A DNA stretch of 64,000 bases from Pararhizobium qamdonense (GTDB lineage: Bacteria > Pseudomonadota > Alphaproteobacteria > Rhizobiales > Rhizobiaceae): the NCBI RefSeq assembly GCF_029277445.1, contig NZ_CP119566.1:2606001-2670000 (forward strand). Direction: 5' to 3'. The notes beneath the pieces were generated by a model. It saw nothing but the letters and a program-made list of their open reading frames with translations, was not told where the DNA came from and ran no database searches. Position 1 is the stretch's first letter; each line of letters begins with the position of its first letter. Positions 16,026 through 18,814 of the stretch are shown piece by piece. Made by a program: the position numbers and the translations under genes.

Positions 16026-16072
16026 TACTGACAAGCTGCCGGACCTTGTACCCGGCGAGATTGGAGAACGAC

Positions 16073-17542
16073 ATGGCTGCTGTGCAGGAAACAATCGATC
16101 AGGTCGCCCTGATCGATGTGGACCAGTACAAATACGGGTTTGAGACGACGATCGAAATGGACAAGGCGCCCAAGGGCCTGTCCGAAGACATCATCCGCTT
16201 CATTTCGGCAAAGAAGAACGAACCGGACTGGATGCTCGAATGGCGTCTGGAGGCGTATCAGCGCTGGCTGACGCTGGAAGAGCCGACATGGGCGCGCGTC
16301 AACTATCCGAAGATCGATTTCAGCGACATCTATTTCTACGCAGCGCCGAAGAGCACGCCCGGCCCGACCTCGATCGACGACGTCGATCCGGAGCTTTTGC
16401 GGGTCTATGAAAAGCTCGGCATTCCGCTTCGCGAACAGGAAATCCTGGCGGGCGTGAAAACGCCGCGCATCGCCGTCGATGCCGTGTTCGATTCCGTTTC
16501 GGTCGTGACCACGTTCAAGGAAGAACTGAAGAAGGCCGGCGTGATCTTCATGTCGATCTCGGAAGCCATCCGCGAACATCCGGATCTGGTGAAGAAATAT
16601 CTCGGCACCGTCGTTCCGACGACCGACAATTATTATGCGACGCTGAACTGCGCCGTGTTCACGGATGGATCCTTCGTCTATGTCCCCAAGGGCGTTCGCT
16701 GCCCGATGGAACTGTCGACCTATTTCCGCATCAACGAGAAGGGCACCGGCCAGTTCGAGCGCACGCTGATCATTGCGGAAGAGGGCGCCTACGTTTCCTA
16801 TCTGGAGGGCTGCACCGCACCCCAGCGCGACGAAAACCAGCTGCATGCGGCTGTTGTCGAGCTGGTTGCGCTCGACGATGCCGAAATCAAGTATTCCACC
16901 GTCCAGAACTGGTATCCGGGCGACAAGGACGGCAAGGGCGGCATCTACAATTTCGTCACCAAGCGCGGCGATTGCCGTGGCAAGAACTCCAAGATTTCGT
17001 GGACGCAGGTCGAAACCGGCTCGGCGATCACCTGGAAATACCCGTCCTGCATCCTGCGTGGCGATGGCTCGCGCGGCGAGTTCTACTCGATCGCCGTTTC
17101 CAACGGTCACCAGCAGATCGATTCAGGCACCAAGATGATCCATCTCGGCAAGAACACGTCGAGCCGCATCGTCTCCAAGGGCATTGCCGCAGGCGTCAGC
17201 CAGAACACCTATCGCGGCCAGGTCTCGACCCACCGCAAGGCGGAAAACGCACGCAACTTCACCCAGTGCGACAGCCTGCTGATCGGCGACAAGTGCGGCG
17301 CCCATACGGTGCCCTATATCGAGGCCCGCAATTCCTCGGCGCAGTTCGAGCATGAGGCGACGACCTCGAAGATTTCCGAAGACCAGCTGTTCTACTGCCT
17401 GCAGCGCGGCATTCCCACGGAAGCGGCGATCGCGCTGATCGTCAACGGCTTCGTCAAGGAAGTCATCCAGGAACTGCCGATGGAATTTGCGGTTGAAGCG
17501 CAGAAGCTGATCGGGATTTCGCTGGAAGGTAGCGTGGGCTAG
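16073..17542 (+). CDS. sufB: Fe-S cluster assembly scaffold SufB
   Basis: This 489-residue scaffold subunit of the SufBC2D complex receives sulfur and holds the nascent Fe-S cluster in the cytoplasm. Typical SufB segments are [36 protein letters not shown], and the C-terminal cluster region with [39 protein letters not shown]. The start at 16073 follows GGAGAA; the 9 codons upstream in frame have no ribosome-binding site. It is separated from sufC by 516 bp, an unusually wide gap for these co-acting subunits, because a nuclease cassette is inserted there. Confidence 0.97.
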
Positions 17543-17550
17543 AAATCTCA

Positions 17551-17582
17551 CCGTCATCCTCGGGCTTGTCCCGAGGATCTGA
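17551..17582 (+). repeat. REP-like palindrome, left inverted repeat of GIY-YIG cassette
   Basis: The core ATCCTCGGG-CTTGT-CCCGAGGAT is a 9-bp stem with a 5-nt loop, flanked by CCGTC on the outside and CTGA on the inside. All 32 nt are repeated in inverse orientation at 17955-17986. It resembles the CCTCGGG-type palindromes scattered through Rhizobiales genomes. Confidence 0.85.
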
Positions 17583-17605
17583 TGGAGCCGATCTTGGAGA
17601 CGTGA

Positions 17606-17947
17606 TTGACCGGTTTCGTCTATATGATGTCTGACAAGCCAAGAGGCGTTATCTACATCGGCGTGACCTCAGACCTCACGGGGCGAATTTGGGAACACCG
17701 CAATCACATCCATGAAGGATTTACTGCAAAATATCGCGTCGAGAAGTTGGTTTGGTTCGAACGTCATCCGACCATCGTTCTTGCGATACAGCGTGAGAAA
17801 TCTTTGAAGAGGTATAGACGGGACTGGAAAATCGAATTGATCGAAGGGCTCAACCCCACGTGGTTGGACCTGTTCGAACGTATTGAAGAAATCGACAATG
17901 CCTATCGCCCACATCCGAGCACTAAAATGTGGAGCGATTACAATTGA
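17606..17947 (+). CDS. Single-domain GIY-YIG endonuclease
   Basis: This 113-residue protein is a stand-alone GIY-YIG nuclease domain of the YhbQ/UPF0213 type. The motif reads VYMM...VIYIG (residues about 5-19), followed by the conserved arginine in GRIWEHR and the glutamate in the WFE segment (about 50), which supply the catalytic residues in this superfamily. No DNA-binding domain is attached. The start codon is TTG at 17606, supported by a GGAGA 8 bp upstream. Its neighbours are sufB and sufC, which have no functional link to a nuclease. It is enclosed by perfect inverted repeats, so it more likely serves the repeat element than the suf pathway. Confidence 0.88.
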   Translation: MTGFVYMMSDKPRGVIYIGVTSDLTGRIWEHRNHIHEGFTAKYRVEKLVWFERHPTIVLAIQREKSLKRYRRDWKIELIEGLNPTWLDLFERIEEIDNAYRPHPSTKMWSDYN

Positions 17948-17954
17948 TAGACTG

Positions 17955-17986
17955 TCAGATCCTCGGGACAAGCCCGAGGATGACGG
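17955..17986 (-). repeat. REP-like palindrome, right inverted repeat of GIY-YIG cassette
   Basis: This is the exact reverse complement of 17551-17582 over 32 nt. It begins 7 bp after the GIY-YIG stop codon. The sequences diverge on both sides of the 32-nt identity, which marks a defined repeat boundary. Confidence 0.85.
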
Positions 17987-18058
17987 CGGTCTGAGTGAAG
18001 CGCTTAGGACATGGGTTTGCATGGATCAATGCAAGCCGGCCACTCTAGGAAGATTGAA

Positions 18059-18814
18059 ATGCTTGAAATCAGAAACCTCCATGCCCGCATCGCCGAAGAC
18101 GGTACCGAGATCATCCGTGGTCTGAACCTGACCGTGAAGGCCGGTGAAGTTGCTGCCATCATGGGGCCGAACGGCTCCGGCAAGTCGACGCTGTCCTATA
18201 TCCTGTCGGGCCGCAGCGATTATGAAGTGACCGAAGGCGATATCCTCTATAATGGCGAGAGCATTCTTGAGCTCGATCCGTCCGAGCGCGCCGCCAAGGG
18301 CATCTTCCTTGCCTTCCAGTATCCGGTCGAGATCCCGGGTGTCGCGACCATGCAGTTCCTCAAGGTCGCGCTCAACGAGCAGCGCAAGTATCGCGGCGAA
18401 GACGAGCTTTCGACGCCGGATTTCATCCGCCGCGTCAAGGAGGCCGCCGCCAAGCTGCAGATCAACCCGGATATGCTGAAGCGCCCGCTCAATGTCGGTT
18501 TCTCCGGCGGCGAGAAGAAGCGTGCGGAAATCCTGCAGATGGCGCTGCTGGAGCCGAAGCTTTGCGTGCTCGACGAAACCGACAGCGGCCTCGACATCGA
18601 CGCGCTGAAGATCGTTTCGGACGGCGTCAACGCGCTGCGTTCGCCGGACCGCGCTGTCATCGTCATCACCCATTACCAGCGCCTCCTGGAATATATCGTG
18701 CCCGATAGCGTCCATGTTCTCTACAAGGGCCAGATCATCAAGTCGGGCGACAAGTCGCTGGCGCTTGATCTCGAAGCCAATGGGTATGCCGACATCATCG
18801 ATGCGGCGGCTTGA
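18059..18814 (+). CDS. sufC: Fe-S assembly ATPase SufC
   Basis: This 251-residue ABC-type ATPase powers conformational change of the SufBC2D scaffold. Walker A is GPNGSGKST (about 37-45), the signature is FSGGEKKR, and the Walker B/D-loop region reads CVLDETDSGLDID, the typical SufC form. The start at 18059 has AGGAAG in front; the frame extends 16 codons upstream without support. sufD begins 11 bp after the stop, so C and D are tightly coupled. The distance to sufB is enlarged by the GIY-YIG cassette. Confidence 0.97.
   Translation: MLEIRNLHARIAEDGTEIIRGLNLTVKAGEVAAIMGPNGSGKSTLSYILSGRSDYEVTEGDILYNGESILELDPSERAAKGIFLAFQYPVEIPGVATMQFLKVALNEQRKYRGEDELSTPDFIRRVKEAAAKLQINPDMLKRPLNVGFSGGEKKRAEILQMALLEPKLCVLDETDSGLDIDALKIVSDGVNALRSPDRAVIVITHYQRLLEYIVPDSVHVLYKGQIIKSGDKSLALDLEANGYADIIDAAA

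Follow-up and report, generated by a model that had tools for sequence, protein, structure and literature searches.

A stand-alone GIY-YIG nuclease gene enclosed by CGTC-tagged REPs between sufB and sufC: a candidate two-part mobile system

Why a small nuclease gene framed by inverted repeats lies between sufB and sufC, and whether gene and repeats belong together, is the question raised by this locus of Pararhizobium qamdonense. The window, i.e., the whole stretch of DNA analysed, comprises 64,000 nucleotides (contig NZ_CP119566.1, positions 2,606,001 to 2,670,000). An earlier note on this DNA had described a GIY-YIG gene inside perfect 32-nt inverted repeats between sufB and sufC, each arm being a hairpin with a 9-bp stem, and the layout as well as the hairpins were confirmed. 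The two arms (17551-17582 and 17955-17986), each spanning 32 nt, show 100% complementarity and are separated by 372 nt. The locus is composed of the following features:

16046..17542, + strand: left neighbour, which we take to be sufB from its sequence (ORF as listed; the true start is perhaps some codons downstream)
17551..17582, + strand: left REP, with the tag CGTC at 17552-17555, a 9-bp stem and the loop CTTGT (inverted-pair search, fold, tagged-hairpin detector)
17606..17947, + strand: gene for a stand-alone GIY-YIG nuclease of 113 aa, with a TTG start (ORF list, Pfam, AlphaFold2 model)
17955..17986, - strand: right REP, matching the left one exactly as its reverse complement, tag outward (inverted-pair search, fold)
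18059..18814, + strand: sufC, right neighbour (listed ORF from 18011; start picked at MLEI)

Each arm folds by itself (z -5.1 and -4.3), the stem having 9 bp and the loop 5 nt, and both tags point away from the gene. The 25-nt repeat core was found twice in the window by a search allowing up to 3 mismatches, both copies being exact, and 0.00 copies are expected from dinucleotide shuffles of the window. A syntenic Azospirillum record carries a SufB annotation, and sufC gave one strong match per genome in 24/24 genomes of the genus. It was also considered whether the repeats serve as a terminator or promoter; this was rejected, as a consensus scan of 17480-18100 found neither a terminator-like nor a promoter-like site; the repeats may still act at the RNA level.

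The CGTC REPs are a superfamily characterized by a CGTC, TGTC or CCTC tag, a stem of 8-9 bp starting with AT and a loop of 4-5 nt, and they occur mostly as head-to-head dimers (Di Nocera 2013, PMC3733652). They were found in all alphaproteobacterial orders then recognised, in Neisseria and in four further phyla, and they include Neisseria dRS3 (the CGTC-1 elements) and Rickettsia RPE-4 and RPE-6; the conclusion in the available sections of that paper was that they apparently have no dedicated transposase (PMC3733652). The window repeat has the tag, the 8-9 bp stem beginning with AT and the 4-5 nt loop of this superfamily. The gene and its repeats are probably, although far from certainly, a copy of a mobile system made up of two parts, in which the nuclease is cognate to CGTC-tagged REPs.

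The assignment of the window protein to the GIY-YIG superfamily is based on the domain and on conserved residues. The ORF scored 48.2 bits against the Pfam GIY-YIG model (cut-off 22.6), and Y6, Y17, G19, R27, H31, E64 and N83 are invariant across 10 diverse family members; these are presumably the catalytic residues of GIY-YIG. The AlphaFold2 model (pLDDT 90.1) has Slx1, UPF0213 (1zg2), UvrC and I-TevI as fold neighbours, and Pfam revealed no recognition domain beyond the catalytic one. The suf-clade nuclease gene is under strong purifying selection, with a median dN/dS of 0.09 (74 pairs, 40 intact sequences).

The occurrence of REPs near such nucleases was determined across Alphaproteobacteria. 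A search of 144 genomes drawn from the class yielded 96 matches, spread over 47 genomes, with as many as 10 nuclease genes in a single genome. Six fragments or weak matches (G003:C11:184489, two pieces in G130, G027, G004:C65 and G010:C1:2765683) were omitted, which left 90 genes from 46 genomes, not all independent, as there are several per genome. ORFs of 20-kb stretches from 20 of the 46 genomes, at arbitrarily picked coordinates, served as controls. The strict detector, which gives some false positives such as CCTC inside sufB in L220 and L243, placed a REP within 250 bp of 47/90 nucleases and 25/317 control ORFs; REPs were present on both sides of 26/90 nucleases versus 0/317 controls, and a similar inverted pair in 15/90 versus 0/317. 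The earlier note had asked whether inverted pairs surround GIY-YIG genes beyond chance. The motif-free search for an enclosing inverted repeat (300-bp flanks, score of at least 14) was positive for 45/90 nuclease genes and 0/316 control ORFs, and at least one strongly enclosed nuclease is present in 31/46 genomes. Chance or a general density of REPs as the cause of the association is ruled out by these ORFs of the same genomes. A strong enclosing repeat is absent in the other 45/90 nuclease genes, which counts against the main reading, as do the 18 lowest-scoring loci that were fetched (L137-L154), ten of which lacked a strict REP within 1 kb and had no enclosing repeat above score 13. The relaxed REP detector was unspecific (65/90 nucleases but also 76/316 control ORFs) and served only for the choice of REP in the similarity test, where some chosen REPs are probably spurious. 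REP covariation was left out of the evidence because it is circular, the detector itself requiring pairing, and in alignments A1 and A2 the conservation of the tag and of the CA end is in part a product of the filter.

At the level of whole genomes, the covariance model R1, built for a REP type of 30 nt, detected REPs in 39/47 nuclease-bearing genomes versus 12/97 others (odds ratio 35); the 8/47 nuclease-bearing genomes without an R1 REP count against the main reading. The Pfam model was run on those 12 R1-positive genomes and on 10 with neither REP nor nuclease. Among the R1-positive ones, G072, G097, G035 and G066 carry other small GIY-YIG genes, GIY-YIG proteins of UvrC size only were found in G011, G016, G020, G042, G078, G079 and G089, and none was found in G006. 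The clearest exception, which counts against the main reading, is G078, a 100% complete genome with at least 51 R1 REPs and only UvrC-size GIY-YIG; G089, with 47 weak R1 REPs and likewise only UvrC-size GIY-YIG, counts in the same direction. G078 may have lost its nuclease; otherwise nuclease and REP are tied together more loosely than thought. Orphan REPs in genomes without a small GIY-YIG gene would also arise if another transposase moved the REPs and the nuclease were mere cargo between two of them, associated through common descent, and movement of CGTC repeats by other transposases was left open in the available text of PMC3733652. The same text, however, describes the associations between CGTC repeats and transposase genes as few and fortuitous. 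Moreover, the nuclease-REP association recurs in many genomes, also outside the class with different REPs, and REP type tracks nuclease type within genomes. An explanation by cargo carried along is very improbable.

The nuclease as cognate partner of its REPs was considered further within the genome of P. qamdonense, which contains three GIY-YIG matches (the window gene and two more), each beside CGTC palindromes of its own sequence. The window REP (loop CTTGT, stem ATCCTCGGG) and the REP of the paralogue C1:2151408 (loop CTTGA) have identical stems; C1:4079331 has a different REP stem, and its gene matches over residues 1-70 only. The exact suf-type REP core has 2 copies in the genome, at sufB-sufC only, which counts against the main reading. 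With 1-2 mismatches, 16 further copies were found, model R1 marked at least 48 places, and gene-free REP pairs are also present.

Between genomes, protein similarity and REP similarity were correlated (r 0.27, 61 nucleases with an assigned REP), the largest r being 0.18 in 2000 full shuffles and 0.257 in 2000 within-genome shuffles. The REPs of related species are non-independent, and this pairing may reflect joint descent, beyond specific recognition alone. In the best 80 of 497 named relatives, an enclosing inverted repeat (score of at least 14) was found in 65, and 78 have a strict REP no more than about 300 bp away, a few of these being false matches; where REPs lie on both sides (58 named loci), the tags point outward in 47, while 5 of the others have them inward and 6 have both in one direction. 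One loop base tracks the nuclease clade. In the suf clade, the 50 of the best 80 loci with at least 65% identity, the loop most often ends in T at 47 loci and in A at the other 3, two of which tie with T; in the remaining 30 the last base is A in 19 and T in 1, the core being absent in 10. The partnership of nuclease and REP proposed in the earlier note gains support from the local association, the co-occurrence in genomes and the clade-specific loop base, and the nuclease-REP association is well supported.

The same note had regarded REP, nuclease and REP as one unit, and such units were indeed found at different sites in sister species. The paralogous cassette C1:2151408 (L002) occupies the same site in G161, G156 and G163:C47, and other sites in G151:C7, G163:C48, G162:C40 and G162:C45. 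The G163:C48 site is that of G160:C111, and the copy in G147 lies about 2.5 kb from a homologous neighbour gene, so the same region is possible there. In a BLAST search with L002 and about 150 bp of flank per side as the query, where CGTC begins at 1450 and GACG ends at 1824, homology covered 1450-1825 in G151, 1448-1824 in G163:C48, 1448-1825 in G160 and 1440-1825 in G147; the limits in G162 were 1446-1791 and 1445-1786, and both stop short of the right REP. The homology of the cassettes at different sites stops at or near the tags.

The G163:C48 site was resolved in 22/24 genomes. It carries a cassette in G160, a REP pair in G150, another in G146, tandem cassette pieces in G157 and, in G158, a perfect short palindrome consisting of the two outer half-REPs joined. 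In the window's genome a stub breaks off at the left tag, after its GTC or one base further on, as the following base fits both sides, and continues directly with the right flank. There is no trace of the unit in G164, G156, G161, G159, G147 and G145, and the remaining nine genomes have other sequence. A palindrome-rich repeat, CCTCTCCCC..GCGGGAGAGGA, CAAAATCAACATCTTAGC.., was seen at this site in G152, G149, G154 and G151 (L375, L378, L380, L382), and at the site of the paralogous cassette, G152 (L365, G152:C16:218600-219800) has other sequence that resembles, by eye, a toxin-antitoxin pair of two small genes. Another site shows REP pairs, some of them decayed, as well as single palindromes. 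Where such palindromes are perfect and lie at REP-pair sites (L383 in G158, L307 in G157, L300 in G150, L304 in G153), they have the look of internal-deletion scars. The simplest reading of the gene-free REP pairs is that they are deletion derivatives of cassettes, and slippage between the repeated stem arms can account for part of the collapsed forms. Cassette-free alleles exist both at sufB-sufC and at the G163:C48 site. No clean pre-insertion site was found among the compared genomes, the empty sites differing by more than the cassette, which counts against the main reading, and no target-site duplication was visible by eye at the compared cassette copies.

GIY-YIG is also a homing-endonuclease fold. 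The cassettes may have spread by a homing-like conversion, in which the nuclease would cut other REP loci or REP-free alleles and recombination would copy the cassette in; the REPs would serve as cut site and homology arms, and cassettes would spread only among existing REP sites. It is in line with such conversion that one site has a cassette or a REP pair depending on the species, that I-TevI is among the fold neighbours and that the paralogue weakly matches a group I intron endonuclease model, below the cut-off. However, the six relatives without a trace at the G163:C48 site have no REP there at all, a state that may or may not be ancestral, and the catalytic domain found by Pfam stands alone. 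Conversion of this kind is unlikely, but it deserves some weight.

The history of the sufB-sufC copy was considered separately. Among 24 genomes of the genus, the junction is empty in 13, contains a cassette in 4, a remnant in 1 (G152) and other inserts in 6. The reading frame of the junction cassette in G163 is broken, and in G152, of the same species, the left REP is retained with the opening codons of the gene, after which other sequence follows. The junction (17543-18058 in the window; L074, L076, L080, L084, L086, L087, L091) is a hot spot with other small inserts in six genomes, three of which are alike and about 430 bp long. Over a wider range, the nuclease lies at sufB-sufC in 47 of the best 80 named relatives, from Rhizobium and Agrobacterium to Roseibium and Pannonibacter. 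At this junction Azospirillum lipoferum, on its plasmid AZO_p3 (L178, 1876-2384), has a GIY-YIG nuclease gene of its own, 50% identical and flanked on either side by a REP pair of a different type. In four species, where the 28-nt REP cores were located by an exact search that succeeded in all four genomes, both cores are identical, the inner cassette is 80-85% identical and the downstream flank 46-69%. The occupancy in 47/80 relatives, the low dN/dS and the identical REP cores amid divergence mark the sufB-sufC copy as an old resident of a hot spot, kept by selection, and the identity of the suf repeats reflects maintenance. Recent insertion, which the earlier note had suggested from the unbroken identity of the repeats, was rejected on the grounds of this occupancy, of the strong purifying selection and of REP cores that stay constant while the rest diverges. 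The exact insertion point could not be found by empty-site comparison, as empty and occupied junctions are unalignable by eye outside the genes. That note had also named two findings that would undo its cassette idea, the gene at this junction in all relatives without repeats and repeats elsewhere that never accompany GIY-YIG genes; the junction is empty in more than half of the genomes of the genus, and half of the tested nuclease genes are enclosed.

The long residence at sufB-sufC may also be explained by a host function, in which the nuclease clears REP hairpins or cruciforms, or acts on REP RNA hairpins, and tolerates or needs the REPs without moving them, while the sufB-sufC pair may tune relative suf expression. 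The strong purifying selection, the near-invariant REPs and sufB-sufC position in 47 of the best 80 named loci, the similarity in fold to Slx1, which is a structure-specific nuclease, and the second nuclease type at the Azospirillum sufB-sufC junction would all fit such a function. However, 13/24 genomes of the genus do without any insert at this junction, and a mobile unit is the better fit for genomes with as many as 10 nuclease genes and for cassettes at different sites in sister species. A host function as the whole explanation seems distinctly unlikely.

The two-part mobile system was also followed beyond the class. A relative was present in 33 plasmid-collection records, and strict tagged hairpins were found within 500 bp in 11 of the 12 loci fetched from these, which had been picked for diversity. 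The twelfth, from Planktothrix, has arrays of the TGTCATTCTGAG repeat in place of tagged hairpins; on this plasmid (L182, 1989-2273) the nuclease lies between an MmeI-like restriction enzyme and DISARM drmA, amid the TGTCATTCTGAG arrays. The Neisseria gonorrhoeae nuclease gene is situated amid eleven strict tagged hairpins. In a phylum-wide search, the nuclease family was found in 90/299 genomes. For the 30 listed loci, a strict REP within 300 bp and an enclosing repeat were found in 12/14 and 7/14 loci outside the class and in 9/16 and 13/16 inside it.

Small GIY-YIG genes with a KGWSRAKK motif form a second nuclease subfamily, and inverted TCATCCTGAG..TCGAAGGATGA (or near) palindromes flank them at the following loci:

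L190 (G072), around base 1500: KGWSRAKK locus
L189 (G097), around base 1500: KGWSRAKK locus
L187 and L208 (both G023), around base 1500: KGWSRAKK loci

The KGWSRAKK-type gene of G024 lies at a contig end, where the flanks are not assessable, and no TCATCCTGAG..TCGAAGGATGA-type repeat was found at the other small GIY-YIG genes of G024, G032, G035, G066 and G097. Four loci, too few for a claim, suggest that the coupling of nuclease and palindrome is general. It is close to an even question, leaning slightly towards no, whether a whole class of transposase-free mobile DNA exists, in which GIY-YIG nucleases matched to their own palindromes would spread cassettes and REP pairs by hydrolytic hairpin cutting and host repair; this class would cover the CGTC repeats, Neisseria dRS3 included, and, via the second subfamily, the TCATCCTGAG..TCGAAGGATGA palindromes.

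In such a two-part system, the autonomous unit would be the REP-nuclease-REP cassette, and gene-free, REPIN-like REP pairs would be its non-autonomous derivatives. The REP would form a hairpin on single-stranded or extruded DNA, and the nuclease would read its stem, loop and tag and make a hydrolytic cut near the hairpin base, by the tag. Cleavage by GIY-YIG enzymes is hydrolytic and involves no covalent intermediate, and this chemistry alone joins no DNA. No covalent enzyme-DNA link is expected, unlike for RAYT, and joining would therefore be left to the host, whose replication or repair would connect the ends, so that the unit is moved, copied or lost. The architecture, the association, the co-inherited pairing, the cassettes at different sites with their ends at or near the tags and the site polymorphism were observed. 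That the nuclease cuts REPs, where it would cut and what the host would contribute we infer, and mobilisation of the cassette driven by the nuclease would follow from the same reasoning.

A candidate enzyme, with its cognate repeat known in dozens of species, can now be named for the CGTC REPs, which makes the question of their missing enzyme testable by one laboratory. If the proposal is true, the REPtron architecture arose twice, the second time with an unrelated hydrolytic enzyme and in a unit of about 380-440 bp, and the paired enzymes with their variable-stem hairpins are potentially a ready set of hairpin-specific nucleases. No published GIY-YIG-REP link was present among the matches listed in a full-text search, whose scope did not extend to bioRxiv and most subscription journals. 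In the part of PMC9465073 on Moraxella catarrhalis that was available, RayT and a GIY-YIG gene are separate accessory genes, and in the available parts of PMC10928387 and PMC7263005 the term RAYT is an author's name.

Compared with the CGTC REPs of PMC3733652, for which the available sections report no dedicated enzyme, the REPs described here are accompanied by a GIY-YIG gene, and the window REP has the tail CTGA, whereas many relatives have a CCA tail. An insertion sequence has a transposase between terminal inverted repeats, whereas the gene between the window repeats is a GIY-YIG nuclease, which sets the unit apart from that class. UPF0213, the bacterial Slx1-like proteins and Slx1 likewise consist of a single catalytic domain. 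Slx1, however, partners Slx4 on branched DNA (title of 6seh), whereas the window nuclease is stand-alone, and its family has an invariant Asn at 83, whereas the prokaryotic Slx1-like group is tabled without the C-terminal Asn in the available part of PMC1564403, which may or may not be the equivalent residue. The window gene has the nuclease fold in common with the GIY-YIG homing endonucleases. Homing endonucleases spread selfishly with the aid of host repair, as the window unit would on the present proposal. Unlike them, the window gene shows no intron or intein, has no recognition domain that could be found, and is flanked by its cognate hairpins.

The closest likeness is to REPtrons (TnpA-REP/RAYT), which share with the window unit the gene inside inverted hairpin repeats, the enzyme-specific repeat type, the gene-free repeat pairs and the 4-nt tag beside the stem; enzyme and REP types that are paired and co-inherited, as in a REPtron, were found here as well. 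However, the REPtron enzyme is an HUH tyrosine transposase and its tag is GTAG, whereas the enzyme of the window unit is GIY-YIG and the tag CGTC. According to the available sections of PMC8266576, TnpA-REP cuts and joins via its tyrosine, and it is mostly single copy and without evidence of mobility, whereas the site of the GIY-YIG gene varies and one genome may contain as many as 10 copies. Because the defining enzyme and tag of the REPtron are absent, the statement that the window unit works like a REPtron is kept apart from the statement that it is one.
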